A DNA stretch of 64,000 nucleotides from Ferrovibrio sp. (GTDB lineage Bacteria; Pseudomonadota; Alphaproteobacteria; Ferrovibrionales; Ferrovibrionaceae), in NCBI RefSeq assembly GCF_029255545.1, contig NZ_JANLJJ010000068.1, forward strand, positions 1 to 64,000, read 5' to 3'. Shown in pieces: positions 11,316 through 63,872 of the stretch (its first letter is position 1; every line of letters starts with the position of its first letter). The notes beneath the pieces were generated by a model. The model saw nothing but the letters and a program-made list of their open reading frames with translations, ran no database searches and had not been told where the DNA came from. Position numbers and translations under genes: made by a program.

Positions 11316-11390
11316 TCCCAGGTAGCTCAGTGGTAGAGCAGGCGGCTGTTAACCGCCCGGTCGGGGGTTCGAATCCCTCCCTGGGAGCCA
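11316..11390 (+). tRNA. tRNA-Asn (GTT), integration target
   Basis: Complete tRNA: acceptor TCCCAGG paired with CCTGGGA (11380-11386), D-arm TAGCTCAGTGGTAGAGC, anticodon loop CTGTTAA giving GTT, T-arm GGGGGTTCGAATCCCTC, discriminator G and encoded CCA (11388-11390). A serine recombinase gene runs into its 3' half from the other strand, marking it as the probable attachment site of the element to the right. Confidence 0.96.
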
Positions 11391-34658: not shown

Positions 34659-35621
34659 ATGTCCAGACATGATGCGCGCGCCAGTTCCGGCTCTGACCGG
34701 ACGGGCCTCTATGACGAAATCACCGGTAGGATCCTCGCCGAGTTGGAAGCCGGCCGGCTGCCCTGGGTTCAGCCCTGGGGGACAGCGGCGGCCAAGGCGC
34801 CCCTCGCCATGCCGAGGAACGCGGCCACCGCCCGCTGCTATTCCGGCGTCAATGTGCTGATCCTCTGGGGCGCTGTCGTCCAGCACGGCTTCCCCTGCCA
34901 GAGCTGGCTGACCTTTCGCCAAGCCCTCTCGCTCGGCGGCCATGTCCGCCGGGGCGAGCATGGCATCACCGTCGTCTACGCCGACCGCTTCGTTCCCGAC
35001 GACGAGAAGCGGCGCGCCCGCGAGACTGGCGAGGACGCCCAGGCCATCCCCTTCCTCAAGCGGTTCACGGTCTTCAACCTGGCGCAATGCGAGGGTCTGC
35101 CCGAAGACCTCGCCGTTGCCGCACCGCCGCCTGAGCCCGGCCTGATCGAGCCGAGGGTCGAGGCGCTCATCAAGGCGAGCAGAATCGATTTCCGCATCGG
35201 CGGCGACCGCGCCTTCTATGTGCCGGCGCACGATTATGTCATGGTCCCGCCGCCCCAGGCGTTTTTCGAGCCGATCAACTGGCATCGAACGGCCCTGCAT
35301 GAATGCTCCCATGCCAGCGGGGCGCCGCACCGTCTGAACCGCGATCTCTCGGGCTCCTTCGGTTCCCGGAAGTACGCCTTCGAGGAGCTGGTGGCCGAAA
35401 TTTCGGCAGCGTTCTGCTGCGCGGCCCTCGGCATCGTCCCGACCGTGCGCCACGCCGACTATATTGGCTCGTGGGCCGAGGTCCTGCGCGAGGACAATCG
35501 CGCCATCATCCGCGCGGCATCACAGGCTAGCAAAGCTGCCGACTTCCTGCTCGGCTTTCTGCCCGAAGACGAACGACTTGCTCCGGCGTCCGTTGACGCC
35601 GGCGAGCGGGAGGCGGCCTGA
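34659..35621 (+). CDS. ardC: ArdC-like antirestriction protein (ssDNA-binding plus zincin domain)
   Basis: 320 residues. The N-terminal ArdC domain (about 10-140) is recognised by LYDEITGRILAELEAGRLPW and RCYSGVNVLILWG; it binds single-stranded DNA and protects incoming plasmid DNA from restriction. The C-terminal metallopeptidase-like domain has HECSHASG, an HExxH zinc motif (about residue 212), and the partner region FEELVAEISAAFCCA. Conjugative elements use such proteins at establishment in a new host. Translation begins directly after a structured leader, and the stop codon overlaps the next gene (TGATG). Confidence 0.9.
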   Translation: MSRHDARASSGSDRTGLYDEITGRILAELEAGRLPWVQPWGTAAAKAPLAMPRNAATARCYSGVNVLILWGAVVQHGFPCQSWLTFRQALSLGGHVRRGEHGITVVYADRFVPDDEKRRARETGEDAQAIPFLKRFTVFNLAQCEGLPEDLAVAAPPPEPGLIEPRVEALIKASRIDFRIGGDRAFYVPAHDYVMVPPPQAFFEPINWHRTALHECSHASGAPHRLNRDLSGSFGSRKYAFEELVAEISAAFCCAALGIVPTVRHADYIGSWAEVLREDNRAIIRAASQASKAADFLLGFLPEDERLAPASVDAGEREAA

Positions 35622-36070: not shown

Positions 36071-36085
36071 GAGGAAGAGGGTCGC

Positions 36086-36152
36086 GGGATTTTCGTGACG
36101 GGTTGGAGGCCGAGAGAGAGGCTTTCGGCCGCCCGTCGCGGAGTAAATCCCG
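36086..36152 (+). ncRNA. Structured leader of parB (three-tier hairpin, possibly radC-type)
   Basis: Three stacked stems: GGGATTT (36086-36092) with AAATCCC (36145-36151), CGTGACGGG (36094-36102) with CCCGTCGCG (36132-36140), and GGCCGA (36108-36113) with TCGGCC (36125-36130), capped by a GAGAGAGGC loop. The outer stem ends one base before the start codon, so folding could gate initiation. Confidence 0.72.
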
Positions 36153-38288
36153 ATGGCTACTTCCGTTCAGAAGATCACCTTGTCGTCCTCACGCGACATT
36201 CCCTTCAACAAGCTGGTGCTGAGCCAGTCGAACGTCCGGCGCGTGAAGGCTGGCGTCTCGATCGACGACCTTGCGGCCTCGATCGCCCGCCGCGGCCTCA
36301 TCCAGAGCCTCAACGTCCGTCCCGTCCTCGACGCCGAGGGCCAGGAGACCGGCATGTTCGAGGTTCCCGCCGGCGGCCGCCGCTACCGGGCGCTGGAGCT
36401 TCTGGTGAAGCAGAAGCGCCTGGGCAAGACCGCCCCGGTGCCCTGCGTGGTGCGCGATCCCTCGACCGCCATCCTCGCCGAGGAAGATTCGCTCGCCGAG
36501 AATATCGAACGCGCGCCGCTGCATCCCCTCGATCAGTTCCGCGCCTTCCAGGACATGCGCCTGAAGGGCCAGTCCGAGGAGGACATCGCGGCGGCCTTCT
36601 TCATTCCCGTCAACGTCGTGAAGCAGCGCCTGCGCCTGGCTGCAGTCGCGCAGTCGCTCCTCGATGTCTATGCCGAGGACGGCATGACGCTGGAGCAGCT
36701 CATGGCCTTTACCGTCTCGACCGACGAGGCACGTCAGGTGCAGGTCTGGGAGTCGATCCGCAACTCCTGGTCCAAGGAGCCCTATCAGATCCGCCGGATG
36801 CTGACAGAAAGCACCGTGCGCGCGTCCGACAAGCGGGCGATCTTCGTCGGGCTAGACGCCTATGAGGCCGCCGGCGGCAGCATCATGCGCGATCTGTTCC
36901 AGGCCGACGATGGCGGATGGCTGCAGGACCCGGCGCTGCTCGATCGCCTCGTTTCGGAGAAGCTGAAGATCATCGCCGACGAGGTCGCGGGCGAAGGCTG
37001 GAAATGGATCGAGGTCGATGTCAGCCATCCCTACGATGTCGCGCGCGGACTGCGCGAGATTACCGGCACGCCGGTTGATCTGACCGACGACGAGCGCGCG
37101 ACGATCGAGGCCCTCAACGCCGAATACGCCAGGCTGGAGGCGGACTATGAAGGCGCCGACGAGCTGCCCGACGATGTGGATGAGCGGCTCGGCGAGATCG
37201 AGACGGCGCTGAACGCCTTCGAGCAGCGGCCCACCATCTATGATCCGGCCGACATCGCCCGCGCCGGCGTGTTCATCAGCATCGACGCCGATGGCTCGCC
37301 CTCGATCGATCGCGGCTATGTGCGTCCAGAGGATGAAGCTCCAGTGGACATCGAAACCGATGGCGGTGACGCTAGCCAGGGCGTCGAGGGCTCGGATCCG
37401 GCCGCTTCATCGGTGCAACGGGCCGTCATCACCATCGGCGGCCAGTCGACCGAGGCGGAGGATGACGAGGAGGAGACGATCAAGCCCTTGCCTGAACGGC
37501 TCGTGATGGAGCTGACCGCGCACCGCACGCTGGCACTGCGCGACGCACTGGCGAACAATCCCCACGTCGCGCTGACAGCGCTGCTGCACAAGCTCGTCAC
37601 CGACATTTTCCAGCGCAGCTCGACCGCCGGCGGGTGCCTGGAAGCCAGCGTCCGGCACGTCTTCTTCCCCGTGCAGGCCGCCGACCTGAAGGACAGCGCG
37701 TCCGCCAAGGCTGTCAGCGAGCGGCAGGAGGCCTGGAAGACCGATATCCCGCAGGAGGATCAGGCGCTGTGGGAGTGGCTCGACGGACTGGACGACGCCA
37801 GCCGTCTGGCGCTGCTCGCCCATTGCGTCAGCTACGGCGTCAACGCGCTGTTCGAGAAGGTCGACCGCTATGGCGGCTCCGGCGTCTCGCAGCACAGCCT
37901 CGAACGCCGGCTCGGTCAGGCCGACCGGTTGGCCCGCGCGGTCCGGCTCGACATGGTGGAGGTCGGCTGGACGCCTACCGTCGACAACTATCTCGGGCGC
38001 GTAACCAAGCCGCGAATCCTCGAAGCCGTGCGCGAAGGGGCTGGCGAGCGGGCCGCGCAGCTCATCGACCATCTGAAGAAGGGCGACATGGCCAAGGAAG
38101 CGGAACGGTTGCTGGCCGACAGCGGCTGGCTACCCGAGCCGCTGCGCCTCACCGAGGTCGAACCGGCCACCGGGTCGGCGGTCGAGGGCGACGGTGAGAC
38201 CGAGGCGCTGCCGGAATTCCTCAGCGGCGATGATGAGACCTCGGCCGACAACGAAGAGGACCCTGCCCACCTTATCGCTGCGGAATAG
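36153..38288 (+). CDS. parB: ParB/RepB/Spo0J-type nuclease-domain partition protein
   Basis: 711 residues. The N-terminal ParB domain (about 10-115) has IPFNKLVLSQSNVRRVKAG, GLIQSLNVRPV, PAGGRRYRALELL and DSLAENIERAPLHPLDQF, the CTP-binding motifs of ParB/Srx proteins. An HTH region follows (EEDIAAAFFIPVNVVKQRL). The long acidic middle and C-terminal part is typical of ParB homologues on alphaproteobacterial conjugative elements, where they probably bind DNA for maintenance or gene control. It is distinct from the ParA locus at 51.6 kb. Start codon fixed by the leader hairpin that ends against it. Confidence 0.9.
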   Translation: MATSVQKITLSSSRDIPFNKLVLSQSNVRRVKAGVSIDDLAASIARRGLIQSLNVRPVLDAEGQETGMFEVPAGGRRYRALELLVKQKRLGKTAPVPCVVRDPSTAILAEEDSLAENIERAPLHPLDQFRAFQDMRLKGQSEEDIAAAFFIPVNVVKQRLRLAAVAQSLLDVYAEDGMTLEQLMAFTVSTDEARQVQVWESIRNSWSKEPYQIRRMLTESTVRASDKRAIFVGLDAYEAAGGSIMRDLFQADDGGWLQDPALLDRLVSEKLKIIADEVAGEGWKWIEVDVSHPYDVARGLREITGTPVDLTDDERATIEALNAEYARLEADYEGADELPDDVDERLGEIETALNAFEQRPTIYDPADIARAGVFISIDADGSPSIDRGYVRPEDEAPVDIETDGGDASQGVEGSDPAASSVQRAVITIGGQSTEAEDDEEETIKPLPERLVMELTAHRTLALRDALANNPHVALTALLHKLVTDIFQRSSTAGGCLEASVRHVFFPVQAADLKDSASAKAVSERQEAWKTDIPQEDQALWEWLDGLDDASRLALLAHCVSYGVNALFEKVDRYGGSGVSQHSLERRLGQADRLARAVRLDMVEVGWTPTVDNYLGRVTKPRILEAVREGAGERAAQLIDHLKKGDMAKEAERLLADSGWLPEPLRLTEVEPATGSAVEGDGETEALPEFLSGDDETSADNEEDPAHLIAAE

Positions 38289-43393: not shown

Positions 43394-44437
43394 ATGGCCC
43401 GCCGCGACGCATCCGAACTGGCACAGCGTCTTGGACGACAGGCCGAGGCTGTGTGCCGGCACTATCTCTCGGCTGGATATCGCGAGGGCCGCTACTGGCT
43501 GGTCGGCGACGTCCGAAACACACCGGGCCGCTCGATGTTTGTCCGCCTGAAGGGAGCCGATTCCGGCAGGGGTGCGGCGGGTAAATGGACCGACGCGGCC
43601 ACAGGCGAACACGGCGATCTCCTCGATGTCATCCGCGAAAGCTGCGGGCTGATCGACTTCAAGGACGTCGCCGAGGAGGCCCGAACCTTCCTGAGCCTGC
43701 CGCATCCGGAACCAGACCCGGACCACCAACGACGCCCGGCATCGGCGCCCGCCGGGTCTCCGGAGGCCGCACGACGGCTCTTCGCAATGTCGCGGCCGAT
43801 TACGGGCACTATCGTAGAGACGTATCTACGGAAACGCGGCATCACGGCTTTGCACGGAACCGGATCGCTCCGCTTCCATCCACGCTGCTACTATCGGCCG
43901 GACGAGCATTCGCCGACCGAGACCTGGCCGGCGATGATCGCGTCCGTCACCGATCTCGACGGCCGGATCACGGGCGTACATCGCACCTGGCTCAGCCCCG
44001 AAGGGAGCGGCAAGGCGCCAATCGACACACCGCGACGGGCAATGGGCGAGCTCCTCGGTCATGCGGTCCGGCTCTGCACGGCGCACGATGTGATGGCGGC
44101 CGGCGAAGGCATCGAGACGATCCTGTCACTCCGCATGGCCCTACCGGGCCTGCCAATGGCGGCTGCGCTCTCGGCCGCACACCTTGCCGCCATCCTGTTC
44201 CCGGCGACCCTTCGCCGACTCTACATCGCCCGCGACGACGATCCGGCCGGTGACGGCGCGCGCGATAGCCTGGTCGAACGGGCGCGGGACGCCGGCATCG
44301 AGGCGATTGCGCTGTCGCCGACGCTTGGGGATTTCAACGAGGATCTCCGCACTCTCGGCATCGGCGCGCTGCGGGCAGCGATCCGTCAGCAGCTCGCCCC
44401 GGAGGACGTCGCCCGCTTTCTCGCCTTGGCGGCATAG
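43394..44437 (+). CDS. Toprim domain protein (primase-like)
   Basis: 347 residues. The N-terminal half (RDASELAQRLGRQAEAVCRH, then GKWTDAATGEHGDLLDVI) resembles the zinc-less primase-associated region of mobile-element Toprim proteins. The C-terminal Toprim fold has AAGEGIETIL with the catalytic Glu (about residue 237) and IARDDDPAGDGA with the DxD acids (about 281). Probably a primase acting on transferred single-stranded DNA. It begins immediately after the Strawberry-notch stop with no gap. Confidence 0.87.
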   Translation: MARRDASELAQRLGRQAEAVCRHYLSAGYREGRYWLVGDVRNTPGRSMFVRLKGADSGRGAAGKWTDAATGEHGDLLDVIRESCGLIDFKDVAEEARTFLSLPHPEPDPDHQRRPASAPAGSPEAARRLFAMSRPITGTIVETYLRKRGITALHGTGSLRFHPRCYYRPDEHSPTETWPAMIASVTDLDGRITGVHRTWLSPEGSGKAPIDTPRRAMGELLGHAVRLCTAHDVMAAGEGIETILSLRMALPGLPMAAALSAAHLAAILFPATLRRLYIARDDDPAGDGARDSLVERARDAGIEAIALSPTLGDFNEDLRTLGIGALRAAIRQQLAPEDVARFLALAA

Positions 44438-44512: not shown

Positions 44513-44739
44513 GACCGCGACCCGGCCTTCGAGAGGGCGATCGGCCGTCAAGCGGCCCGGACCGGCAAAGGCTGCGCCCGGCTATTTTCCGGCGCGCTCC
44601 AGAGGAGCGCTTTCCATCGCGAAACAAAATAGCCGGCCTTCGCCATCCGGCGCGATGCTTGGCCCTGCGCTGGCGCTCCGGGTGCAGGTCCGGCCCGCCC
44701 GACGGCTTTCGTCGCCAGAAGGCCGCGAGGGTCGCGGTC
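44513..44739 (+). ncRNA. Large multi-branched structured element before the DUF2493 gene
   Basis: Closing helix GACCGCGACCC (44513-44523) with GGGTCGCGGTC (44729-44739), continued by GGCCTTC (44524-44530) with GAAGGCC (44718-44724). Inside are GCCGTC (44544-44549) with GACGGC (44701-44706), a 12-nt helix 44552-44563 with 44687-44698 (one mismatch), CCGGCTATTTT (44578-44588) with AAAATAGCCGG (44626-44636), GCGCTCC-AGA-GGAGCGC (44594-44610), and CGCC-N4-GGCG (44641-44652). It fills most of a 323-bp gap and stops 21 nt before the start codon. No known RNA family recognised. Confidence 0.68.
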
Positions 44740-44760: not shown

Positions 44761-45696
44761 ATGGCGAACGAACACGACGACGGCTTCGAACCGCACCACG
44801 CCTCATCCCCCACCGACCATGTCCTGACCGAACTCCAGCTCTACGGCTTTCGTCCCTTTCAGGACGAACCCGATCCGAGGCCACTTCCCGAAGGCGATGC
44901 GGTCGCCGGGGCCATCGCCGACATCTTCGACGCCCTGATCGCCACCCTCGAGGACACCCGCCTCGAACCCGACCTCGATGACCTCCTCTGGTCGACCGTC
45001 AACCTCTTCCATCGCGCCACCGACCGGATCGAACGCGAACTCGATGACAATGAGCAGGCGCAGCGCCGCGGTCAGCGCGAACAGGACGGCTCGGAGGTGA
45101 AGTCGGTAGAACTCGAACGTCTCACCGCCGAAGGGCAGACCATGATCGAGCGCCGCAACGCCTTCGAGCTGATGCGCGATCAGGCCGCAGAACACTTCGA
45201 GCGCCACACCGGATCATCCTGGCGGCCACGCAACGGCTCGATGGTCAATCACCGCGCCATGACCTCGGCGATGATCGACAGCCGCGATTTCCTCGCCGCC
45301 AAGCGCCGGGCAGAGAGCGAGGTGATGATCCCGGCGGGTCCGAAGATCGCCGTCACCGGCGGCCTCGACTTCAACGATCACCGGCTGATCTGGGCCAAGC
45401 TCGACCAGGTCCACGCCAAGCATCCCGACATGGTGCTGTTGCACGGTGGATCACCGAAGGGCGCCGAACGCATCGCCGCTCGCTGGGCGGATCACCGCAA
45501 GGTTCCGCAGATCGCGTTCAAGCCCGACTGGACGAAGCACGCCAAAGCCGCGCCGTTCAAACGCAACGATCAGATGCTCGCCGTCCTGCCGATCGGCGTG
45601 ATGGTGTTCCCCGGCACCGGCATCCAGGACAATCTCGCCGACAAGGCGCGCAAGTTCGGCATCCCGGTCTGGAAGTTCGGCAGTGGCGGCGCGTGA
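44761..45696 (+). CDS. DUF2493 (SLOG-like) domain protein
   Basis: 311 residues. The N-terminal half is acidic and helical (LDDLLWSTVNLFHRATDRIE). The C-terminal ~115 residues are the DUF2493 domain: KIAVTGGLDFNDHRLIWAKL, MVLLHGGSPKGAERIAARWA and a Rossmann-like end with FPGTGIQDNLADKARKFG. The fold is of the SLOG nucleotide-ligand type, so it may bind a signalling nucleotide; its job on these elements is not established. AAGGAG lies 8 nt before the ATG, itself downstream of the big structured element. Confidence 0.86.
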   Translation: MANEHDDGFEPHHASSPTDHVLTELQLYGFRPFQDEPDPRPLPEGDAVAGAIADIFDALIATLEDTRLEPDLDDLLWSTVNLFHRATDRIERELDDNEQAQRRGQREQDGSEVKSVELERLTAEGQTMIERRNAFELMRDQAAEHFERHTGSSWRPRNGSMVNHRAMTSAMIDSRDFLAAKRRAESEVMIPAGPKIAVTGGLDFNDHRLIWAKLDQVHAKHPDMVLLHGGSPKGAERIAARWADHRKVPQIAFKPDWTKHAKAAPFKRNDQMLAVLPIGVMVFPGTGIQDNLADKARKFGIPVWKFGSGGA

Positions 45697-47607: not shown

Positions 47608-48086
47608 ATTCGGGCTGGGAGGCGGCAGCCGGTTGAGCAAGCTTGACCAGCGGGCGTCGATGGCTCGGCACATTGATGGTGCGGGAGCTTAGCGTTCTGA
47701 CCGAAAGTGTGGCGTGGGAACCGGTGCAGGCGCTGCGTCGAGACCGGGAGACAAGGACCGCCGGTGATAGTGCCGCGTATTCACCGGTACCGAGGGGGTC
47801 GCCACCGTCTCCATTGATCGGCTCTGCCTCGTCGAGCGCTCCAAAACGGCCTCTTCGATGGGTGTATCTGGCCGAAGGACGGCTTCGCCTCGATCGCCTA
47901 TGGCGCAACAGCGCCGTCAAGACTTTCTTCCCCTGCCGGCTGCGCCGTCATTCCTCGCGGGACAAGAAAGTCCCTCCTTTGCTGTCTGAAGCCCTGCGGG
48001 TGCGCCGTCGATCGCCTCCGGCCGGTCGATCACCATCGAGGCCGCAATGGTGCGGGCTCGAAAGACAGTGATCAAGGAGACTTCTC
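47608..48086 (+). other. Intergenic region with a hairpin before the first DUF736 gene
   Basis: No credible gene. One strong inverted repeat, GACTTTCTT (47921-47929) with AAGAAAGTC (47964-47972), and a weaker pairing of GATCG with CGATC near 48010-48035 lie in the second half, possibly another structured leader. The first half shows nothing recognisable; a 142-codon open frame across it has arginine/serine-rich shadow composition. Confidence 0.5.
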
Positions 48087-48413
48087 ATGGCGACCATCGG
48101 CACCTTCAAGAAGACCGGCTCGAACGAGTTCACCGGCGAAATCGTCACCCTCAGCGTCCAGACCAAGAACGTCCGCATCGTCCCCGACGCCCGCTCCACC
48201 GGCGAGAACGCTCCCAGCCACCGCGTCTTCGTCGGCCGAGCCGAGATCGGCGCCGCCTGGTCCAAGCGCTCCAACGAGGGCCGCGACTATCTCGGCCTGA
48301 AGCTGGACGACCCGAGCTTCAACGCTCCGATCTATGCCAACCTTTTCGACGACGAGGATGGCGACGGTTACAGCCTCATCTGGTCCCGGCCCAACCGCCG
48401 CAATGGCGACTGA
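48087..48413 (+). CDS. DUF736 family protein, first copy
   Basis: 108 residues. Diagnostic pattern: IGTFKKTGSNEFTGEIVTL at the N-terminus, SHRVFVGRAEIGAAW in the middle and LKLDDPSFNAPIYANLF near the end. DUF736 proteins are short, beta-rich and nearly confined to alphaproteobacterial plasmids and conjugative elements; the function is unknown. Start supported by AAGGAG upstream. A paralogue lies at 53624-53959. Confidence 0.9.
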   Translation: MATIGTFKKTGSNEFTGEIVTLSVQTKNVRIVPDARSTGENAPSHRVFVGRAEIGAAWSKRSNEGRDYLGLKLDDPSFNAPIYANLFDDEDGDGYSLIWSRPNRRNGD

Positions 48414-54740: not shown

Positions 54741-54984
54741 CGGCGCCTCGACCGGATCGCGGTCTGGCGTGCCCCGGCGCATCATGGAGAGCGCTGAGGG
54801 GGGAGCGAGGCAACACGACCGCACGATGGCAGGATAAAGGGGCGCGATGTGCGCTTCGGTTCGGTCGTGTTTTTTCAGGGGCTTACGCGGCGAATTCGCG
54901 AGGTGCGCCTGATCGGCGCAGCCTGCGGCTTCGGCAATTTCAGAAGAAAATCAGTGCCGTTGCGCGATGTGCGGGATCGCGACC
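54741..54984 (+). other. Region between transglycosylase and relaxase, candidate oriT
   Basis: A frame from 54737 overlaps the transglycosylase stop, but its 83-residue product is arginine-rich without recognisable features, so no gene is called. The only clear symmetry is the palindrome GCGAATTCGC (54888-54897). Position directly before the relaxase start makes an origin of transfer plausible; no conserved nic sequence was identified. Confidence 0.3.
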
Positions 54985-56724
54985 ATGAGCAGCGAGGACG
55001 ATTTCCGCATCCGGCCAGGTCGCATCCGCTCGACGAGCGCGCAGCGCGCCAGACCCTTCATCGCGCAGGCGCTGGCGGCGGCCCAGCGCGCCGGCGGAAC
55101 GGTCTCCCGCAGGGGGACGATCGGGCCGAACCACCGCTCCCGGTTCGGCCGGGGCCAGCGCGCATCGGTGCAGGCCAACCGGCTCATCACCTCCCGCTCG
55201 CGCGGCGCCGTCATCAAGGCGCGTGTCGTCCGTCACGGCGGACGGAGCGCGCCGCTTGCGACCCACCTCAGCTATCTGAGCCGCGAGGGCGTCACCCGGG
55301 ACGGAGAGAAGGCCCGGCTGTTTGGCCCCGGCACGGACGATGCCGATCGACAAGCGTTCGCGGAGCGGTGCGAAGATGACCGGCATCATTTCCGGTTCAT
55401 CGTCTCGCCAGACGACGCCTTGGAGATGTCCGACCTCAAGACTTTCACCCGCGACCTCGTCGGGCAGATGGAAAAGGACCTCGGCACGAAGCTCGATTGG
55501 GTCGGCGTCGATCATTGGAACACCGAGCATCCGCACGTCCACCTGATCGTGCGTGGCGTGCGCGAGGACGGCGAGAACCTCGTCATCTCGCGCGACTACA
55601 TCAAGGAGGGCATGCGCGATCGGGCGCGCGACCTGATCACCCAGGAGCTCGGCCCCCGCACCGATCAGGAGATCCGCCGCACGCTCGAACGCCAGATAGC
55701 CGCCGAGCGTTGGACCAACCTCGACCGACAGCTCACGCGCGACAGCACCCGCACCGGCGTCATCGACCTCGCGCCGCATCCCGACCGCCAACCCGACGAG
55801 TTCCATGCGCTCAAGGTCGGGCGACTACGCAAGCTGGAATCGCTCGGTCTCGCCAACCAGTTCGGTCCCGGCCAATGGGCCATGTCGGAGAATGCCGAGG
55901 CGACGCTGCGCGAGCTGGGCGAACGCGGCGACATCATCAAGCGCATTCATCGCGGCCTGGCCGAGCGGGGCATCGAGCGCGGCGCGGCCAATTATGTGCT
56001 GGCCGCCGAGAGCCTGGACGATCCCGTCGTCGGCCGGTTGGTCGCCCGTGGCCTCGACGACGAGCTGAAGGGCACGGCCTATGCCGTGGTCGATGGCGCC
56101 GACGGGCGCACCCACCACATCAAACTGCCCGACCTCGATGCCGCCGGCGACAGCACGCCGGGCTCGATCGTCGAACTGCGCAAGTTCGACGACGCCCAGG
56201 GCCGGCGGCGCGTGGCGCTGGCGGTCCGCTCGGACCTCTCGATCGAGCGGCAGATCACGGCGACCGGCGCCACCTGGCTCGACCGTCAGGCAATTGCCCG
56301 CGAGCCGGTCGCCCTTGGTGGCGGCGGCTTCGGCGCAGAGGTGCGCGGGGCGATGGATCGCCGCGCCGAACATCTGATCGGCCAAGGCCTCGCCGAACGT
56401 CAGAGTCGCGGCGTCAGCTTCAGCCGTAACCTGATCGAGACCCTGCGCCTGCGCGAACTGGACGCGCTCGGCGAGAAGCTGGCGTCGGAGAGCGGACGGC
56501 CGCTGACGCGCGCTTCGACCGGCGAATACGTCTCCGGCACCTACCGGCAGCGCTTCGCGCTCGCCTCCGGCCGGTTCGCAATGATCGACGACGGCCTCGG
56601 CTTCCAGCTCGTGCCTTGGTCCCCCTCACTCGAAAAGCAACTCGGCCGCCATGTCTCCGGCCTCGCGCGCGGCGACGGCGGCATCGACTGGAGCTTTGGC
56701 CGCAAGCGGGGGCTCGGATTGTAG
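54985..56724 (+). CDS. Relaxase/mobilization nuclease with DUF3363 domain
   Basis: 579 residues from the internal ATG (MSSEDDFRIRPGRI). Relaxase that nicks the origin of transfer and pilots the strand. The N-terminal basic region (1-70) is followed by KARVVRHGG with ATHLSYLSREG (tyrosine region) and the histidine triad region DHWNTEHPHVHLIVRG (about 174-190). The C-terminal half is the DUF3363 region (GAANYVLAAESLDDP, then ATGATWLDRQ). This VirD2-like type belongs to the alphaproteobacterial element family seen here. The usual neighbour, a TraG coupling protein, is displaced by metal-resistance cargo. Confidence 0.93.
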   Translation: MSSEDDFRIRPGRIRSTSAQRARPFIAQALAAAQRAGGTVSRRGTIGPNHRSRFGRGQRASVQANRLITSRSRGAVIKARVVRHGGRSAPLATHLSYLSREGVTRDGEKARLFGPGTDDADRQAFAERCEDDRHHFRFIVSPDDALEMSDLKTFTRDLVGQMEKDLGTKLDWVGVDHWNTEHPHVHLIVRGVREDGENLVISRDYIKEGMRDRARDLITQELGPRTDQEIRRTLERQIAAERWTNLDRQLTRDSTRTGVIDLAPHPDRQPDEFHALKVGRLRKLESLGLANQFGPGQWAMSENAEATLRELGERGDIIKRIHRGLAERGIERGAANYVLAAESLDDPVVGRLVARGLDDELKGTAYAVVDGADGRTHHIKLPDLDAAGDSTPGSIVELRKFDDAQGRRRVALAVRSDLSIERQITATGATWLDRQAIAREPVALGGGGFGAEVRGAMDRRAEHLIGQGLAERQSRGVSFSRNLIETLRLRELDALGEKLASESGRPLTRASTGEYVSGTYRQRFALASGRFAMIDDGLGFQLVPWSPSLEKQLGRHVSGLARGDGGIDWSFGRKRGLGL

Positions 56725-56774: not shown

Positions 56775-58205
56775 TCAACCAGCGCAGCAGGAAAGTTTCG
56801 TCACATCCTTGTCGAAGCCCTGTGCGGCGAGCTTCAATCCCTCCACCGTCGTAAGGTAAGGAAAGATCGTCTCGCCAAGCTCCTTCGTCGTCATTCCAAA
56901 TTTGATCGCAAGCACCATGGTCTGGATACTGTCCGCACCCTCGGGTGCGAGGATCTGCGCCCCGAGCACGCGGTCGGTATTCCTGTCGGCCACCAGCTTT
57001 ATGAGTCCGCGCGTGTCACGGGCTGCGAGCGCCCGCGGCACCTGGTCGAGCGGTGCAACCGACGTCTTCACATCGAAACCGCGCTGTCTTGCCTGTCGCT
57101 CGGAAAGTCCGACGCCCGCGACCTGCGGATCAGTGAAGACCACCCAGGGCATGGCGGTGTTGTCGTAGACGAGACTGTCGCCGTTGAGCGCGTTGCGCGC
57201 GGCAAGCTTGGCGCCATAGGCCGCCATATAGACGAACTGATCGCGTCCGGTCACATCGCCGGCGGCATAGACGCCGGATTTCGAGGTGCGCATCCGGTCA
57301 TCGACAACGATCCCGCCATTGGGCGCCAGCCTTACGCCGGACTCCTCCAGGCCAAGGTCCGCCGTGTTGGGTATGCGTCCGGTCGTCACCAGAACCTGCT
57401 CGGCGGTGAGCGTCTCTTTGCTGCCATCCACATCAATGGTCAGCGTGATTCCACCGTCTTGCTGCCCGATCCTGGAATAGGTCAGTCCGGTGCGGACATT
57501 GATGCCTTCGTCGGCCAGATAGCGGGCGAGTGCTTGCGCGATTTCCGGTTCCGCCTCGGGCAGCAGCCGCGAGCGCGTGACCAGGGTTACGGCGGTCCCT
57601 GTGCGGGCAAACATCTGCGCCAGTTCACAGCCGATATAGCCGCCCCCGATGACCAGAAGCGAGCGCGGCTGCCGGTCAAGTTCCAGTGCCGTGGTGCTGG
57701 TGAGGGTGGGAACATTCTCAATGCCGGGGATGCTCGGCATGGCCGGCGCCGCGCCGGTGGCGACGATGATCTTGCCCGCAGAAACGGGGCTGTCGTTCAC
57801 AAGCACACCGGCGCCATTCAGCCTTGCTGCCCCCTCCAGATAGGCGATGCTGCTATATTCGGGCAGCAGATCGACATATTTCTTCTGCCGGAGTGTTCCG
57901 ACGAGATCGTCCTTGGCCGCGACCAGCGCTGACCAGTCAGCAACATGGGCCTCACCGGCGAGGCCAGCGAACCGGCTTGCCGCGCGTGCGCCATGCAGAG
58001 CTTCGGCGGCGCGGATCATGGTCTTGGACGGCACACACCCGACATTGACGCACGTGCCGCCGATGAGCCCATGTCCGATGAGAGCCACATTCGCGCCTTG
58101 CTCGGCAGCTGTGATCGCAGCGGAGAAACCCGCCGAACCCGCACCGATGACGGCGAGATCATAGCCACCTTTCCGGTTGCGGTCTGTGCTGCAGCAATCG
58201 GCCAT
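56775..58205 (-). CDS. merA: Mercury(II) reductase
   Basis: 476 residues. Cytosolic FAD enzyme that uses NADPH to reduce Hg(II) to volatile Hg(0). FAD motif AVIGAGSAGFSAA, redox active site GGTCVNVGCVPSKT, NADPH motif LLVIGGGYIGCELAQMFAR and the C-terminal vicinal pair KLSCCAG that delivers Hg(II). The N-terminal metal-binding (NmerA) domain of longer homologues is absent; only a short MADCCSTDR segment remains. ATG 58205 has AGAAGGG upstream and is preferred over the frame start at 58280. Last gene of the merT-merP-merF-merA operon. Confidence 0.96.
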   Translation of the reverse strand: MADCCSTDRNRKGGYDLAVIGAGSAGFSAAITAAEQGANVALIGHGLIGGTCVNVGCVPSKTMIRAAEALHGARAASRFAGLAGEAHVADWSALVAAKDDLVGTLRQKKYVDLLPEYSSIAYLEGAARLNGAGVLVNDSPVSAGKIIVATGAAPAMPSIPGIENVPTLTSTTALELDRQPRSLLVIGGGYIGCELAQMFARTGTAVTLVTRSRLLPEAEPEIAQALARYLADEGINVRTGLTYSRIGQQDGGITLTIDVDGSKETLTAEQVLVTTGRIPNTADLGLEESGVRLAPNGGIVVDDRMRTSKSGVYAAGDVTGRDQFVYMAAYGAKLAARNALNGDSLVYDNTAMPWVVFTDPQVAGVGLSERQARQRGFDVKTSVAPLDQVPRALAARDTRGLIKLVADRNTDRVLGAQILAPEGADSIQTMVLAIKFGMTTKELGETIFPYLTTVEGLKLAAQGFDKDVTKLSCCAG

Positions 58206-58206
58206 A

Positions 58207-58455
58207 TCAGGCCCTTCTCTTGTTCGATTGTGTGTCGGAGGCACAGCACGCCGCCGCCCGCTCCCGCCGCCAGAACCCATAGGCGGTAATCACGAGAAAG
58301 AGGACGAGCGCTGGAATGAGAACATAGTCGATCCAGCCGAGCCAGGCCGACAGGCCAAGAGCGCCGAGCGCCAGACCCAGGACCGGTGTTGCGCAGCAGA
58401 TCGCCGCGATGACCGATCCGATGATGCCGGTCTTGAGGATCGTCATGTCCTTCAT
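58207..58455 (-). CDS. merF: Mercury transporter MerF
   Basis: 82 residues, matching MerF length. Two transmembrane helices: IIGSVIAAICCATPVLGLAL, whose CC pair binds Hg(II), and YVLIPALVLFLVITAYGF. A second pair, AAACCAS, is near the C-terminus on the cytosolic side. Takes Hg(II) across the inner membrane to MerA. Stop is one base from the merA start. Confidence 0.92.
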   Translation of the reverse strand: MKDMTILKTGIIGSVIAAICCATPVLGLALGALGLSAWLGWIDYVLIPALVLFLVITAYGFWRRERAAACCASDTQSNKRRA

Positions 58456-58465
58456 CTTCCCGGAC

Positions 58466-58798
58466 CTAGCTTCTCGCTGTCGCCGGATAGCCGGCATTCG
58501 TCGAGGCCGCTGCGATCGCTTCCGGCGTCGTAATCGAGGGATCGAACACCACAATCGCTGTCTTGGCGTCGAAATTGATCTCGACCGACTTCACGCCGTT
58601 CACGCCCGCCATGGCCGATTTGACCGTGACCGGGCATAGCGCACAGGTCATGTTCTCGATGGAGAACCTCACCGTCCGGACGGCAGTGACTTGGGCAGCC
58701 GCCGATTGTGCCGCAAATAGCGAGACGCCCGACGTGGACAAGATGCCGGCGGCGCCCAGAACCAGCACGCCTGCGGTGATGACGAGACTTCGTTTCAT
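58466..58798 (-). CDS. merP: Periplasmic mercury-binding protein MerP
   Basis: 110 residues. Signal peptide (VITAGVLVLGAAGILSTSG, then AAQS/AAAQ region) precedes an HMA domain with IENMTCALCPVTVKSAM, the NMTCxxC Hg(II)-binding motif, and the C-terminal AIAAASTNAGYPA. Captures Hg(II) in the periplasm and hands it to MerT/MerF. Start at 58798 gives the normal length. Confidence 0.95.
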   Translation of the reverse strand: MKRSLVITAGVLVLGAAGILSTSGVSLFAAQSAAAQVTAVRTVRFSIENMTCALCPVTVKSAMAGVNGVKSVEINFDAKTAIVVFDPSITTPEAIAAASTNAGYPATARS

Positions 58799-58809
58799 GT
58801 CGTGTTCTC

Positions 58810-59208
58810 CTAGTAAAAAAGTGGTGCCCACCAGTTGATCGTCAGGGCCAGAACGACAAGCACGCTCGCCAGCCAGAGAGCAGTCTTGGTGATGATGGAG
58901 GATTCCGGCCGGGCGCAGTAGGATCCCTCCTCGCAAGCGGGTTTCGGCTTGAAATAGATCTGCCGGAAGCCAAGCCCGATGAAAACCAGGGCTACCGCCG
59001 CGAAGTAGGGCTTGTAGGGTTCAAGCGCCGTGAGGTTGCCGATCCAGGCCCCGGAAATGCCAAGCGCAAAGAGCGCGAGCGGTGCAATGCAGCAGGTCGA
59101 GGCGAGGATCGCGCCAACGACGCCGCCCGCCGCGAACCAGCTCTTGCGCCGGTCCTTGATTTCCCGTGGCGCGCTCAGCGGTGCTGTTTCGACATCCGTA
59201 TGGCTCAT
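58810..59208 (-). CDS. merT: Mercuric transporter MerT
   Basis: 132 residues with three membrane helices. GAILASTCCIAPLALFALG carries the Hg(II)-binding cysteine pair in helix one; LEPYKPYFAAVALVFIGLGF is helix two; a cytosolic loop with ACEEGSYC leads to helix three, LWLASVLVVLALTINW. First structural gene of the operon, 31 nt from its promoter. The N-terminal ~25 residues (MSHTDVETAPLSAPR) are a non-conserved extension. Confidence 0.95.
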   Translation of the reverse strand: MSHTDVETAPLSAPREIKDRRKSWFAAGGVVGAILASTCCIAPLALFALGISGAWIGNLTALEPYKPYFAAVALVFIGLGFRQIYFKPKPACEEGSYCARPESSIITKTALWLASVLVVLALTINWWAPLFY

Positions 59209-59239
59209 GCGACTCGACCCTCGATTTTCATTCGATCGG

Positions 59240-59270
59240 AGCCTACAGTCTGTAGCAACTACAGACTCAA
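59240..59270 (-). promoter_or_regulatory. MerR-type mer promoter-operator
   Basis: On the minus strand TTGAGT (59270-59265) and TAGGCT (59245-59240) are separated by 19 bp, the over-long spacer typical of MerR promoters. A perfect 9-3-9 dyad, AGTCTGTAG-CAA-CTACAGACT (59247-59267), lies between them. MerR would untwist this DNA when Hg(II) binds, turning on merTPFA. Confidence 0.92.
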
Positions 59271-59285
59271 GGGGTTTATCAAACG

Positions 59286-59699
59286 ATGAGCGATCACGTT
59301 TCAGGGAGAGGGTTGCAGCGGGCCAAACTCGCTCAGCGCACGGGCTGCAATCTCGAAACCATCCGCTATTACGAGAAGATCGGCATGATGCCCGATCCGC
59401 CGCGCATGGCATCGGGCTACCGCGTCTATAGCGAGAGTCACGTCTCGCGGCTGCGTTTCATCCTGCGTGCCCGTGAGCTTGGCTTCGCCATCGAACAAAT
59501 CCGCGGCCTGCTCGACCTCGTCGATGGCGGCACCCAGACCTGCGCCGAGGTGAAGGAGCGGACCGAAAGGCATCTGGCCGATGTACGTGCAAAAATCGCC
59601 GATCTCCGGCGTATCGAAAAGGTGTTGGCGGCGACCGCAGCGCAATGTTCTGGAGACGACGTGCCCGAGTGCCCGGTCCTGGAGGCGCTGGCATCATGA
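59286..59699 (+). CDS. merR: Mercury-responsive regulator MerR
   Basis: 137 residues. N-terminal winged helix: [20 protein letters not shown]. The long dimerisation helix ([20 protein letters not shown]) is flanked by cysteines in TQTCAEVKE and at [10 protein letters not shown], the three-cysteine Hg(II) site of MerR-type sensors. Divergent from merTPFA across the operator. The stop overlaps the start of the ynfA remnant. Confidence 0.92.
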
Positions 59700-59844
59700 T
59701 GGCACATTGGCGATTTATTTCGGAGCGGCCTTGGCGGAGATCTCCGGCTGCTTTGCCTTCTGTGCCGGGCTGCGCCTGGACCGATCCCCGCTGTGGCTCA
59801 CACCGAGCACGGCGAGCCTTGCGCTCTTCGCTTATCCGCCATAG
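59696..59844 (+). pseudogene. Truncated, frameshifted ynfA-family remnant
   Basis: After the MerR stop a frame reads [20 protein letters not shown], then [12 protein letters not shown] and [10 protein letters not shown] before a stop. This matches the first ~48 residues of YnfA-type small membrane proteins (about 108 residues). The ATGATG at 59696 is out of frame with it by one base, and the last half is missing, replaced by the second mer-like module. Confidence 0.75.
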
Positions 59845-59859
59845 CGAGGCCAATGGGTA

Positions 59860-59891
59860 TTGACCCCGTACTGTGGTACGGAGTCTAAAGT
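59860..59891 (+). promoter_or_regulatory. MerR-type promoter of the MerR-HMA gene
   Basis: TTGACC (59860-59865) as -35 and TAAAGT (59886-59891) as -10 have a long 19-20 bp spacer holding the dyad CCGTAC-TGTG-GTACGG (59866-59881). The same dyad precedes the P-type ATPase gene. Confidence 0.85.
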
Positions 59892-59912
59892 TCTTACTTT
59901 ACGAGACACGCC

Positions 59913-60599
59913 ATGGCCACCGGAATGACCATCAGCCGAGCCGCCGAGCGGGCGGGCGTCGGCGTCGAAACCATCCGCTTTTACGAGCGGCGCGGGCTGA
60001 TCGAGCAACCCGTCCGGCCAAGGACCGGTGGCTATCGCTTCTATGATACCGAGGTCGTCGAGCGTATCCGATTCATCCGGCAGGGGCAGGAGCTCGGATT
60101 CTCCCTGCGCGAGATTGCGGAACTCCTCTCGCTACGGGCCGATCCGGGGGCCGATTGCGGCGATGTCCGAACGCAGGCGGTGAGCAAGCGCGAAGAGGTC
60201 GACCGTAAGATCGCGCAGCTTCAGCACATCCGGAGCGCCCTCGACGAATTGATTGCTACCTGCCCGGGCGGCGGCGCCTTGCGCGCCTGCACGATCATCG
60301 ACGCAATGGCCGGTCGCCGAGCGACAAAGGCCCTCCGACCATCCGGTAAGAGAGTTGGTCAGAACAGAACAACGAAAGGACAGGACGTGAAAACCGCCAC
60401 GTTCAAGATCGACGGCATGCACTGCGACGGCTGTGCACGCACCATCGAGGCGCTCGTTTCGACCGAGCCCGGTGTGCGCAAGGCAACCGTTTCGTTCAAG
60501 GCGCGCGAAGCCCGCATCCTGTTCGATCCACAGGTCAGGAACGAGGACCAGCTCGCGGCGGCGATCCGCAAAGCCGGATATTCCGTCGCGAGCCAGTGA
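59913..60599 (+). CDS. MerR family regulator fused to a C-terminal HMA domain
   Basis: 228 residues in one uninterrupted frame. Residues 5-75 are a MerR winged helix (RAAERAGVGVETIRFYERRG, then LGFSLREIAELLSL). DCGDVRT and ATCPGGGALRACTII carry the sensor cysteines. After a basic linker, residues ~160-228 are an HMA domain with FKIDGMHCDGCARTIEAL. A GTG at 60387 with AAAGGA upstream could also start the HMA part as a separate MerP-like product. Probably senses a thiophilic metal, Hg(II) or similar, and autoregulates via its promoter dyad. Overlaps the next gene by 4 nt. Confidence 0.85.
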   Translation: MATGMTISRAAERAGVGVETIRFYERRGLIEQPVRPRTGGYRFYDTEVVERIRFIRQGQELGFSLREIAELLSLRADPGADCGDVRTQAVSKREEVDRKIAQLQHIRSALDELIATCPGGGALRACTIIDAMAGRRATKALRPSGKRVGQNRTTKGQDVKTATFKIDGMHCDGCARTIEALVSTEPGVRKATVSFKAREARILFDPQVRNEDQLAAAIRKAGYSVASQ

Positions 60600-61282
60600 T
60601 CGTGACGGAATTCGGGCTCATCAATCTCCTTGTCGTCCCCGCAGCGCTAGGCCTGTTCGGCTTCATCGAGCCCTGCTCGATCGGCTCGAGCCTCATCTTC
60701 ATCAAGTATCTCGAGCGCAAGGAAGCGGCGCGGAAGCTTGCCGAAACCGTGCTGTTCGGTGCAACGCGCGCAATTTTCATCGGCGCGTTGGGCGTCCTGG
60801 CGGTCCTTCTGGGCACGGCTTTCCTCGGGTTGCAGAAGGGCGCGTGGATCTTACTTGGCGCGGTGTATCTCGTCATTGGCGCGCTCTACGCCACGGGGCG
60901 GGCGCGATTGCTGATGCAGTCGATCGGACCGCGGCTCAGCAGTCTCTCCAGCGCACGTGGATCCGTCGGCCTCGGCGTGCTCTTCGGCCTCAACATCCCG
61001 GCCTGCGCGGCGCCGCTGCTGCTGGTCCTTCTTGGGGCCGCGGCGGCTGGTGGCGCGACAGGTGCCACATTCCTCGGCGGCTTCGTCTCCCTCGCCGTAT
61101 TCGGCCTCGCGCTGTCGCTGCCGCTTGTCCTAGCCGTGCTGTTCGCACCGGCGCGGCGGGCGCTCGACTGGCTGGCGGGCCTCTCGGCCCGCGTGCCCTT
61201 TTGGACCGGCGTCGTGCTCGTGGCGCTCGGCCTGTGGTCGATCGGATTCGGCCTGTTCGTTACCCTGCCCGAGCCGGCGTGA
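60596..61282 (+). CDS. CcdA/DsbD-like membrane protein of the metal module
   Basis: 228 residues with about six membrane helices. LLVVPAALGLFGFIEPCSIG and VLFGLNIPACAAPLLLVLLG carry the paired Pro-Cys motifs of the CcdA/DsbD fold, which relays electrons or moves metal-thiolates across the inner membrane. GTG at 60596 or 60602 starts it; the former overlaps the regulator stop. In metal cassettes such proteins are thought to aid transport; the substrate here is an inference from the neighbours. Confidence 0.8.
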   Translation: MIVTEFGLINLLVVPAALGLFGFIEPCSIGSSLIFIKYLERKEAARKLAETVLFGATRAIFIGALGVLAVLLGTAFLGLQKGAWILLGAVYLVIGALYATGRARLLMQSIGPRLSSLSSARGSVGLGVLFGLNIPACAAPLLLVLLGAAAAGGATGATFLGGFVSLAVFGLALSLPLVLAVLFAPARRALDWLAGLSARVPFWTGVVLVALGLWSIGFGLFVTLPEPA

Positions 61283-61321
61283 CGTAAGCGCAGTCGCGCT
61301 TTGTCCAGCCATCGTCGCCTC

Positions 61322-61352
61322 TTGACTCCGTACGTCGGTACGGGGTGCAGGC
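61322..61352 (+). promoter_or_regulatory. MerR-type promoter of the P-type ATPase gene
   Basis: TTGACT (61322-61327) followed by the dyad CCGTAC-GTCG-GTACGG (61328-61343) and GCAGGC/GCAGGCT at a 19-bp spacing. Dyad arms are identical to those before the MerR-HMA gene, so one regulator probably controls both. Confidence 0.85.
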
Positions 61353-61424
61353 TTCCACTGAAGTTGCCCGAATCGAAGCCGGCAAGGGCGTCCTTCCCGG
61401 CAACCAGCCTCAACGGAGGCCGCC

Positions 61425-63872
61425 ATGACCGTCGCGACAACCACAGACCCTGCCGCCCTGCCACTATGGACCGAGGAGCCCGCGAGCCGCCGGGATCGGG
61501 CGCGTATCCGGGCGCGCATCGGTGGGCTCCACTGTTCGCTCTGCACGAGCACCATCGAAAAGGCGCTCGGCCGCAAGCCCGGCGTCGACAAGGTGGCGGT
61601 GAGCCTCACCCACGAGCAGGCTCTGGTTGAATACGACCCCGCCATAGCCGACCCAACTGAACTCCTCCAGACGCTGCGCGATATTGGCTACACATTGCAC
61701 GATCCGCGCAAGCTGCGCGCCTTCGAGGAGGAGGAACGCGATCTCGTGCGCGAGGGTCGGCGCTTCCTTGTCGCCGTCGCCTTCAGCCTGATTGCCATCG
61801 CGCTCATCGCAGCGCCAACAGGCATCGGATCAACCGCGCTGCCGCTCGTCGCCGCACTCGGCCTCATCGGCTTCGTGTTCCTGGTGCTCCGTGCGCAAGG
61901 ACTATGGATCGCGACTTCAAGCGCAACGGGTCTCGGGGTGCTTGCCGGCTCACTGCTCCTGTACCGCGAGACGCTCGGTGTTACGGCGGCCACGCCGTGG
62001 CTGGTCGGTGCGCTTGCAGTTCTCCTCGTCTTCGGCGTCGCCCGTCACATCCTGAGCATGGCGATCCAGGCGCTGCGCCGGGGGATTCTGAATCAGCACG
62101 TGCTCTTGGAAGCAGGCGCGTTCGCCGGCCTCACGGGCGGCCTGATCGGGCTCACCTTCGATCCGCCCGGCTACCCGACCGCGCCGTTCTTCGCGGTCTC
62201 GGTCATGGTCGCCACCTACCATCTCTTCTCCGAATGGCTGTCGCTCATCGTCAAGACCCGCAGCTCTCAGGCGGTCAAGCGCCTGCTCGACCTCCAGCCG
62301 GACGTCGCCCGCGTTGTGCGGAACGGCCGCGAGGTGGAGATCCCGATAGCGGACGTCGTGGTCGACGACCTCGTGCGCATCCGCCCAGGCGAACACTTGC
62401 CCGTCGATGGCGAGGTGGTGGAGGGGCATTCTTCGGTCAATCAGGCGCTCGTCACCGGCGAGCCGATACCAGTCGAGCGCTCGGTCGGCGATAAGGTCAT
62501 CGGTGGATCGATCAACGGCACGGGCGCGCTGCTCGTCCGGGTCACCGCGGTTGGCGAGCAGAGCTTCCTGCAGCGCATCGCACGCGAGGTCGAGGACGCC
62601 CGCGCTCTGAAGCCCGGCCTTCTGCACCTCGTCGACCGCGTGCTTGTCGTCTACACACCAACGGTACTCACGATCGCGTTGCTCGCGGCGCTTGGCTGGA
62701 TGATTGTTCCCTGGCTGCTCGGCAGCGAGCCCGACCTGCAGCGGGCGGTATTCGCGGGTCTGAGCGTGCTGGTCATGGGCTATCCCTGCGCCGTCGGCAT
62801 CTCGGCGCCGCTGTCGATCGTGCGTGGCGCGGGTGAGGCGGCCGAGCGGGGAATCCTCATGCGCACCGGCGAGGCGTTCCAGGGCTACCGGCTGGTGAGC
62901 CAGGTCGCCTTCGACAAGACCGGGACGCTGACCGAGGGGCGACCGCGCCTTATCGAGATCGAAGCTACAGGCATCACCGAGGAGGGTCTGCTCGGCGTCG
63001 CTGCCGCAGCCGAAGCCTCCTCCGAGCATCCGCTGGCTGACGCGATCGTAACCGCTGCCTTCGAGCGGAATATCACGCCGCCTGAGGTGGAGCGCTTCGA
63101 GGCTGTTCCGGGCAAGGGCGTTCGTGTGCGCATCGGTACGGAAACCGTGCTGGCCGGTAGCCCACGCTTCATGACCGAGAGCGGCATTGACTTGGCGTCG
63201 CTGGCGAGCCGCATCGTTACGCTCGAACGCGCCGGACGCACCGTCATCGCTGTCTGCCGCAACGGGCAGCCTCTTGGCCTACTCGCCCTTGGCGACACTG
63301 TCAGGAGCGAGGCCGCCCAAACATTGGCCGCACTGAAAGATGTGGGCGTCAGAACCGTGCTGGTGACTGGCGACAACGAGCTCGCGGCGCGACGGGTCGC
63401 GGCCGAGGTCGGGATCGACGAGGTTCACGCCGGAATCCTCCCCGGCGAAAAGGCGGCGCTCGTGCGGCGGCTTCAGGAAAGGGGCCGAGTGGCAATGGTC
63501 GGCGATGGCATCAACGATGCGCCGGCGCTGATGCAGGCGGATGTCGGTATCGCCATGGGCGGGGGCACTGACATCGCCATCGATGCGGCCGACATCATCA
63601 TCCTGAGCAATCGGCTCGACGGTGTGGTGACCGCCCGAGAGATCAGCCGCCGCAGCTACCGCAAAATGGTGCAGAACGTCTCGCTCGCCTTCCTGTTCAA
63701 CGGTATCGGCGTGCCGCTGGCGACGACCGGGCTCGTCTATCCGGTCTGGGCGATGGTGGCCATGGCGGTGAGCGTGACGACGATCTTCTTCAACTCGCTG
63801 TGGGGCCAGCCCTCGCTGTTCTTCCAAGCCATCCTCAGCGTCGGCAAACCGGTCGCAGCGGAGAAGGCATGA
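61425..63872 (+). CDS. Heavy-metal P1B-type ATPase with YPC membrane motif
   Basis: 815 residues. Inner-membrane metal pump. The N-terminal HMA domain has GGLHCSLCTSTIEKAL (C37/C40). A membrane region follows with helices from about 100. The catalytic core carries VTGEPIPVERSVGD (actuator), the phosphorylated Asp in FDKTGTLTEGR (D497), SSEHPLADAI (HP motif) and VGDGINDAPALMQ. The metal-site helix reads VMGYPCAVGISAP (453-455), YPC rather than CPC or SPC, so metal specificity cannot be read off; the HMA-bearing regulator suggests mercury or another soft metal. Controlled by the dyad promoter 75 bp upstream. Confidence 0.93.
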   Translation: MTVATTTDPAALPLWTEEPASRRDRARIRARIGGLHCSLCTSTIEKALGRKPGVDKVAVSLTHEQALVEYDPAIADPTELLQTLRDIGYTLHDPRKLRAFEEEERDLVREGRRFLVAVAFSLIAIALIAAPTGIGSTALPLVAALGLIGFVFLVLRAQGLWIATSSATGLGVLAGSLLLYRETLGVTAATPWLVGALAVLLVFGVARHILSMAIQALRRGILNQHVLLEAGAFAGLTGGLIGLTFDPPGYPTAPFFAVSVMVATYHLFSEWLSLIVKTRSSQAVKRLLDLQPDVARVVRNGREVEIPIADVVVDDLVRIRPGEHLPVDGEVVEGHSSVNQALVTGEPIPVERSVGDKVIGGSINGTGALLVRVTAVGEQSFLQRIAREVEDARALKPGLLHLVDRVLVVYTPTVLTIALLAALGWMIVPWLLGSEPDLQRAVFAGLSVLVMGYPCAVGISAPLSIVRGAGEAAERGILMRTGEAFQGYRLVSQVAFDKTGTLTEGRPRLIEIEATGITEEGLLGVAAAAEASSEHPLADAIVTAAFERNITPPEVERFEAVPGKGVRVRIGTETVLAGSPRFMTESGIDLASLASRIVTLERAGRTVIAVCRNGQPLGLLALGDTVRSEAAQTLAALKDVGVRTVLVTGDNELAARRVAAEVGIDEVHAGILPGEKAALVRRLQERGRVAMVGDGINDAPALMQADVGIAMGGGTDIAIDAADIIILSNRLDGVVTAREISRRSYRKMVQNVSLAFLFNGIGVPLATTGLVYPVWAMVAMAVSVTTIFFNSLWGQPSLFFQAILSVGKPVAAEKA

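Follow-up and report, generated by a model that had tools for sequence, protein, structure and literature searches.

A covarying hairpin in the transferred strand of alphaproteobacterial conjugative elements, probably a switch for gene expression from newly arrived single-stranded DNA

The interval between a primase-like gene and a DUF2493 gene in a Ferrovibrio sp. contig is occupied by 227 nucleotides which contain no gene and which can fold back on themselves, and the question raised by this locus is whether the structure belongs to the message of the gene that follows it or to the DNA itself. A reading made from the sequence alone had likened the element to large riboswitches and noncoding RNAs. 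The window referred to below is the whole stretch of 64,000 nucleotides that was analysed, and the features on which the argument rests, with their nearest genes, are the following.

44513 to 44739, minus strand (the putative functional, transferred strand): long imperfect hairpin element, copy 1, defined by fold, conservation, context and strand preference
44576 to 44638, minus strand: conserved core of copy 1, class I, matched by covariance model R1 (73 bits, E 6.5e-15)
44761 to 45696, plus strand: DUF2493 gene (YAcAr, SLOG family), directly after copy 1 (Pfam PF10686, E 4.3e-33)
47841 to 48050 (ends approximate), minus strand: copy 2, a further long hairpin, which precedes DUF736, defined by fold and core plan
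47917 to 47976, minus strand: core of copy 2, class II, matched by R1 (58 bits, E 3.7e-11)
48087 to 48413, plus strand: DUF736 gene, downstream of copy 2 (Pfam PF05284)

Structure, conservation and distribution of the element

The helices that the sequence-only reading had listed are all present in copy 1, and the fold lies far beyond those of shuffled sequences. The element is closed by an 11-bp helix between GACCGCGACCC (44513-44523) and GGGTCGCGGTC (44729-44739) and by a second, 7-bp helix between GGCCTTC (44524-44530) and GAAGGCC (44718-44724), within which lie an inner helix, CCGGCTATTTT (44578-44588) with AAAATAGCCGG (44626-44636), and an inner hairpin, GCGCTCC (44594-44600) with GGAGCGC (44604-44610). 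It ends, as had been noticed, 21 nt before the start codon of a SLOG-like gene, which is the DUF2493 ATG at 44761. Folded as RNA, the plus strand reaches -132.7 kcal/mol (z -4.97) and the minus strand -139.8 kcal/mol (z -5.28), with no shuffle equalling either value; folded as DNA, the minus strand reaches -82.0 (z -5.80) and the plus strand -74.3 (z -4.27). The better structure is that of the minus strand, a single well-defined hairpin, long and imperfect, which bears side hairpins. Rfam, searched with the whole window and, at permissive settings, with the element, returned no family above threshold, so the earlier statement that no known family could be recognized stands, and the element has no match in the phage collection. 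A sequence search of its own genome finds it once, with no further copy, and no transposase flanks it, so that an insertion sequence or REP-like repeat, which had been named as the finding that would count against a structured element, was not encountered.

The conserved part of the element is a core of 60 nt, which was aligned across 60 cores, those linked to DUF2493 and those linked to DUF736 being taken together. Read on the strand opposite the gene, the core runs from one arm of a stem of ~11 bp through TTG, the unpaired segment TCGCGAkGnAA, an inner hairpin and GG to the second arm of the stem. Class I cores have the stem GGCTATTTT/AAAATAGCC, with the unpaired segment GTTTCGCGATGGAAA and the inner hairpin GCGCTCC/GGAGCGC in copy 1, class II cores have the stem GACTTTCTT/AAGAAAGTC, with CGCGAGGAATG in copy 2, and divergent members build the core stem of yet other sequences; copies 1 and 2 of the window are dissimilar beyond the core plan. 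Covariation, which had been proposed as a check on homologues, is strong in this core: pairing is kept in 85.6% of cells, compared to 66% in shuffled alignments, none of which reaches the observed value, and at most 52% when slid, and double-sided changes occur in 19 of the 23 core pairs. The unpaired-looking N of class I ATGNAAAG likewise covaries with a base of the opposite side (CG 21, GC 9, TA 5). The distance from the core to the start codon that follows, of DUF2493 or DUF736, is typically ~120 nt, and each mobile element carries two or more structurally alike copies.

A loose descriptor combining TCGCG with a stem was useless in GC-rich DNA, so stricter descriptors and the covariance model were used instead. 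The first genome scan relied on a 17-mer, and because this fixes part of the core, conservation and wobble pairs were rechecked on loci found through the DUF2493 protein. Insertions such as GGGGTCCCCGCGCGGCTTGCCGCGTGGGGTGG occur in the inner-hairpin loop of several cores (L077 6798-6888, L109 2521-2615, L186 5517-5612, L162 21804-21900); recurring in the loops of different elements, they resemble a small mobile palindrome landing there. Class I or II cores at L046 3247-3310, L054 2428-2491 and L182 2049-2106 precede other small proteins, not recognizable by blast as DUF2493 or DUF736, and the set of downstream genes may therefore be wider.

Homologues number ~100 in Alphaproteobacteria, where they hold a fixed place in the order ParB, strawberry-notch (SNO) helicase, Toprim, element, DUF2493; the element is carried by 57 plasmid records and by most of ~120 genome loci. 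Nearly all full-length cases have a Toprim/DUF7146 gene on one side of the element and DUF2493 on the other, ParB and/or the strawberry-notch helicase lying upstream, and relatives carry ArdC, SSB, DUF932, RadC and SOS-response genes in the same region. As a control on bias, loci were also collected starting from the DUF2493 protein, and in this collection the element is found at every locus in which DUF2493 is at least 66% identical. Seven further loci (L141-L145, L147, L156) have almost no sequence similarity to the element, yet they carry a long hairpin that ends near the start codon (T-strand z -2.7 to -9.8); this is the opposite of the case, raised in advance against the structure, of homologues which keep the sequence and lose the pairing. 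The hairpin is absent from some distant DUF2493 homologues (L146, L148, L149 and L151, below ~64% identity). The core was found in 21 of the 289 genomes of a class sample, and Alphaproteobacteria account for 26 of the 27 positive genomes of a phylum sample; the family is essentially alphaproteobacterial.

Direction of transfer and the strand that folds

The window holds a conjugative element of the ICEMlSymR7A type, with rdfS, RepA, ParA, traF, a lytic transglycosylase, rlxS, DUF736 and ArdC, and the following features bear on the direction in which it is transferred.

34659 to 35621, plus strand: ArdC-type anti-restriction protein (Pfam ArdcN and MPTase-PolyVal)
36153 to 38288, plus strand: ParB-like leading-region protein
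39059 (start approximate) to 43393, plus strand: strawberry-notch helicase
43394 to 44437, plus strand: Toprim_3/DUF7146 protein, primase-like, upstream neighbour of copy 1
54829 to 54838, minus strand: predicted nick region of oriT, TTTATCCTG|CC, located in the gap that precedes rlxS, from the nick motif and the MOBP consensus
54967 to 56724, plus strand: RlxS-type relaxase (VirD2/DUF3363)

Every ICE of the ICEMlSymR7A family has DUF736 genes (PMC8627217), and oriT in this family lies upstream of rlxS, in the related ICE after rdfS-traF-msi107 (PMC11963761). The predicted site TTTATCCTG|CC fits the MOBP nick consensus, (C/T)ATCCTG(C/T) (PMC3772185). Counted by motif, all 15 of the 15 RlxS loci have a nick motif of the TTTATC type on their minus strand; counted by the best-scoring match in the gap before rlxS, the minus strand is chosen in 13 of 15, the strands tying in L178 and a plus-strand stretch scoring slightly higher in its close relative L177, and the motif count includes both loci because their minus strands carry CTTCATCTTGCC like the others. 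The exact ATCCTG occurs in five of the 15, the other 10 having variants such as TTTATCTTG. In pAA02, which has an unrelated TraA/TraC system of Ti type, a motif that we take to be a Ti-type nick lies on the same relative strand.

The predicted nick on the minus strand makes the minus strand the putative transferred strand, entering with its 5' end first, and hence DUF736, DUF2493, Toprim, SNO, ParB and ArdC would form the leading region, all of them templated by the T-strand, which is a known arrangement (PMC11541004). Copy 1 lies ~10 kb on the leading side of the predicted nick.

Elsewhere in the window, a tRNA-Asn overlaps the end of a serine recombinase gene (11316-13025); the tRNA gene is the probable site at which the island integrated, and the recombinase its probable integrase. 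A large cluster at 14330-34435, mostly on the minus strand, resembles DISARM, Druantia and Dpd defence systems and encodes DruE-/DrmA-like and DpdE/DrmD-like helicases, a DrmMI-like methyltransferase, an LmuB-like ATPase and a PDC-S01 ATPase, a combination for which no single named defence system was recognized. Beyond the relaxase (56775-63872) lies apparent mercury or heavy-metal resistance cargo: the ORF sequences there include small HMA proteins, a MerR-like regulator and a MerA-like reductase, and a P-type ATPase for heavy metals is also encoded. A short hairpin, CGGGATTT...AAATCCCG, spans the ParB start region (36072-36152, plus-strand z -5.2); its preferred strand is the plus strand, in contrast to the main elements, and a similar one precedes ParB in pCHQ1 (L160), where GCGACTATAATAGTCGC-type palindromes with TATAAT also lie upstream of ParB and of an XRE gene (8241-8520, 23389-23574).

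A folding structure tolerates G.T wobbles only on the strand that folds, the same pair appearing on the complement as an A.C pair which cannot form. Read on the minus strand, the core stem of the seed set has 43 G.T against 2 A.C pairs. The seeds had been picked with a stem rule, so the count was redone on covariance-model matches in the loci fetched by protein, where stem a has 22 G.T against 1 A.C (in 12 elements against 1). Over whole hairpins, aligned in a way that treats both strands alike, the counts are 208 against 116, compared to a ratio of 1.06:1 predicted from composition; for the DUF736 elements they are 181 against 99. A first strand test, based on a consensus fold for each strand, was weak on shared pairs (117 against 70), and for this reason the pairing-symmetric palindrome alignment and composition-corrected shuffles were used in its place. 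By raw energy, which partly reflects composition, 53 of 56 elements have their better fold on the minus strand; hairpin-free control regions likewise lean to the minus strand, so raw energy alone is misleading. When the shuffled energy is subtracted, the minus strand is still favoured in 44 of 50 non-redundant elements, by a mean of -3.9 +/- 0.5 kcal/mol. Linked cores lie on the strand opposite the gene in 170 of 170 cases (DUF2493 114, DUF736 56), and a cmsearch over 663 kb gave strong cores solely opposite the gene, together with weak mirror matches of the same palindromes. All of this evidence is comparative, and since the sequences are related the counts are not independent events; it indicates that the strand built to fold is not the DUF2493 message but the transferred DNA strand.

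A probable single-strand promoter and its alternatives

The reading preferred here, held with rather more confidence than doubt, is that the element is a T-strand hairpin of an alphaproteobacterial conjugative island which acts as an early-expression switch in the manner of Frpo; such a switch would probably let newly arrived mobile DNA express genes before it becomes double-stranded. The computations show the hairpin, its strand, its placement and its recurrence; we infer that in vivo folding, polymerase recruitment and transient expression follow one another in a sequence of steps. The T-strand would enter the recipient, and the hairpin would fold ~10 kb after the nick, presenting a double-stranded stem together with the conserved unpaired core; RNA polymerase would be recruited to it, either directly or via a partner protein, and transcription would proceed from the hairpin base through DUF2493 or DUF736 and the genes behind it while the DNA is still single-stranded. 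Synthesis of the second strand would then remove the hairpin and turn the promoter off. The element may also double as a primer site for that synthesis, as Frpo does, the title of a 1997 paper by Masai and Arai reportedly describing Frpo as both promoter and primer site.

Three features that characterize Frpo-type promoters are found here, namely a place in the leading region, a stable long T-strand hairpin (as a predicted fold) and a downstream gene templated by the T-strand. Several observations count against this reading: the elements have no sequence similarity to the F leading region or any Frpo in it, no boxes were recognized, oriT is a prediction and 10 of the 15 loci have variant nick sites, and some distant homologues have no hairpin. 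Inspection by eye of the GC-rich stems in the class I and class II consensus gave no convincing sigma-70 -35/-10 boxes, and solely TTGC- and TTGACG-like pieces without a matching -10 were seen. A more specific proposal, which we rate at even chances, is that the elements form an undescribed, Alphaproteobacteria-wide class of single-stranded DNA promoter, with a covarying hairpin and an unpaired TCGCGA core, without Frpo sequence or sigma-70 boxes and possibly read by a dedicated plasmid factor, and that DUF2493 and DUF736 are establishment genes whose early expression these promoters control. For the hairpins, taken as a new family that is unrelated to Frpo and lies in alphaproteobacterial leading regions, single-strand promoters are the most likely role and priming sites are the main rival.

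In that rival, the hairpin would be an ssi or sso site which recruits a primase, perhaps the neighbouring Toprim, to start the second strand, its placement before genes being secondary. A structure on the T-strand in the leading region fits this equally well, a primase-like Toprim_3 gene adjoins the element, the highly conserved unpaired TCGCGA segment resembles a protein-recognition site, and an sso is known in ICEBs1 (PMC4595007). Priming, however, needs no placement close before start codons, which is where the copies stand in two unrelated gene families, and several core-positive genomes are without the DUF7146 Toprim (G013 and G029 are negative; G154, G184 and G290 are not among the positives). 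The explanation is regarded as unlikely. The Toprim primase as an obligatory partner is unsupported, given these core-positive genomes.

It is very unlikely that the element specifies a minus-strand noncoding RNA, antisense to the genes, which acts in trans or as an antisense regulator: such an RNA would give the same wobble preference, but no terminator-like U-run follows the minus-strand 3' base, no Rfam family matches, and nothing would explain why the structure is tied strictly to the transferred strand under two oriT systems that are unrelated. Fainter still is the prospect of a plus-strand cis-acting leader or riboswitch of DUF2493, the likeness drawn in the sequence-only reading. The position just upstream of the ribosome site and the strong plus-strand fold noted above would suit it, but a leader RNA predicts the opposite bias in both wobbles and energy, and so the idea fails on strand: between 22 and 43 pairs of the covarying stem are G.T on the minus strand, and thus A.C and unpairable in the mRNA, against 1 or 2 of the reverse kind, and the same core precedes the unrelated DUF736. 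What survives of that reading is a large, conserved, noncoding structured element fixed upstream of DUF2493; its interpretation as RNA does not. Least probable of all is a double-stranded feature such as a replication origin, cruciform or protein-binding palindrome, or else a repeat, for although GC-rich inverted repeats can bind proteins and the island has RepA and ParA genes, such a feature predicts no strand asymmetry, the stems change sequence while their pairing stays, and the single, transposase-free copy speaks against a REP or insertion-sequence repeat.

In the open-licence literature, searches on DUF2493 and DUF736, on single-strand promoters and on structured RNAs of these ICEs turned up no account of the family, and an earlier one may exist elsewhere. 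Known single-strand promoters come essentially from enterobacterial plasmids and were found by their similarity to Frpo; two large surveys searched with Frpo sequences or a -35/-10 consensus (PMC11541004, PMC12826799), and would therefore miss the present hairpins. If the promoter reading is true, zygotic expression from single-stranded DNA would extend to the ICE and plasmid families that predominate in Rhizobiales, Sphingomonadales and Rhodobacterales, both DUF2493 and DUF736 would be candidates for a role in establishment or anti-defence, and leading regions of Alphaproteobacteria could be found directly with the covariance model.

Comparison with known systems

The host element corresponds to the ICEMlSymR7A-family ICEs, with which it shares the order of rdfS, traF, a lytic transglycosylase, oriT, rlxS and DUF736, and the portions of the two papers drawn upon here (PMC8627217, PMC11963761) describe no leading-region hairpin upstream of DUF736 or DUF2493. 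The sso1 of ICEBs1 (PMC4595007) is similar in its single-strand-only, strand-specific activity, which is putative in the present case, and in its position downstream of oriT on the transferred strand; the present element differs by being repeated upstream of start codons.

The closest parallel, Frpo, is a hairpin of the F strand that enters the recipient; it recruits RNA polymerase, and Frpo1 and Frpo2 are required in vivo for early expression of leading genes (PMC9849209). The Frpo/ssi promoters of F, ColIb-P9 and enterobacterial plasmids (PMC9849209; PMC11541004) are likewise long imperfect hairpins of the T-strand, which stand immediately before leading-region genes templated by that strand and which occur in more than one copy per element. 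The present elements are unlike them in having GC-rich stems, a conserved unpaired core, TCGCGAkGnAA, which is absent from F, no recognizable -35/-10 boxes, DUF2493 and DUF736 as their downstream genes, and a distribution in Alphaproteobacteria (26 of the 27 positive genomes sampled). The F leading region gave no significant blastn match and no R1 match, the elements having no sequence similarity to it or to any Frpo in it; F was consequently rejected as a homologue on sequence and kept as an architectural control. Because there is no sequence similarity to F and no recognized -35/-10, the claim made here is that the elements work like Frpo, and not that they are members of the Frpo family. 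In the control, the hairpin that precedes ssb in the F plasmid, at the reported place of Frpo2, has a T-strand z of -5.3 and 8 G.T against 1 A.C pairs, the same architecture and the same wobble signature as in the present elements.
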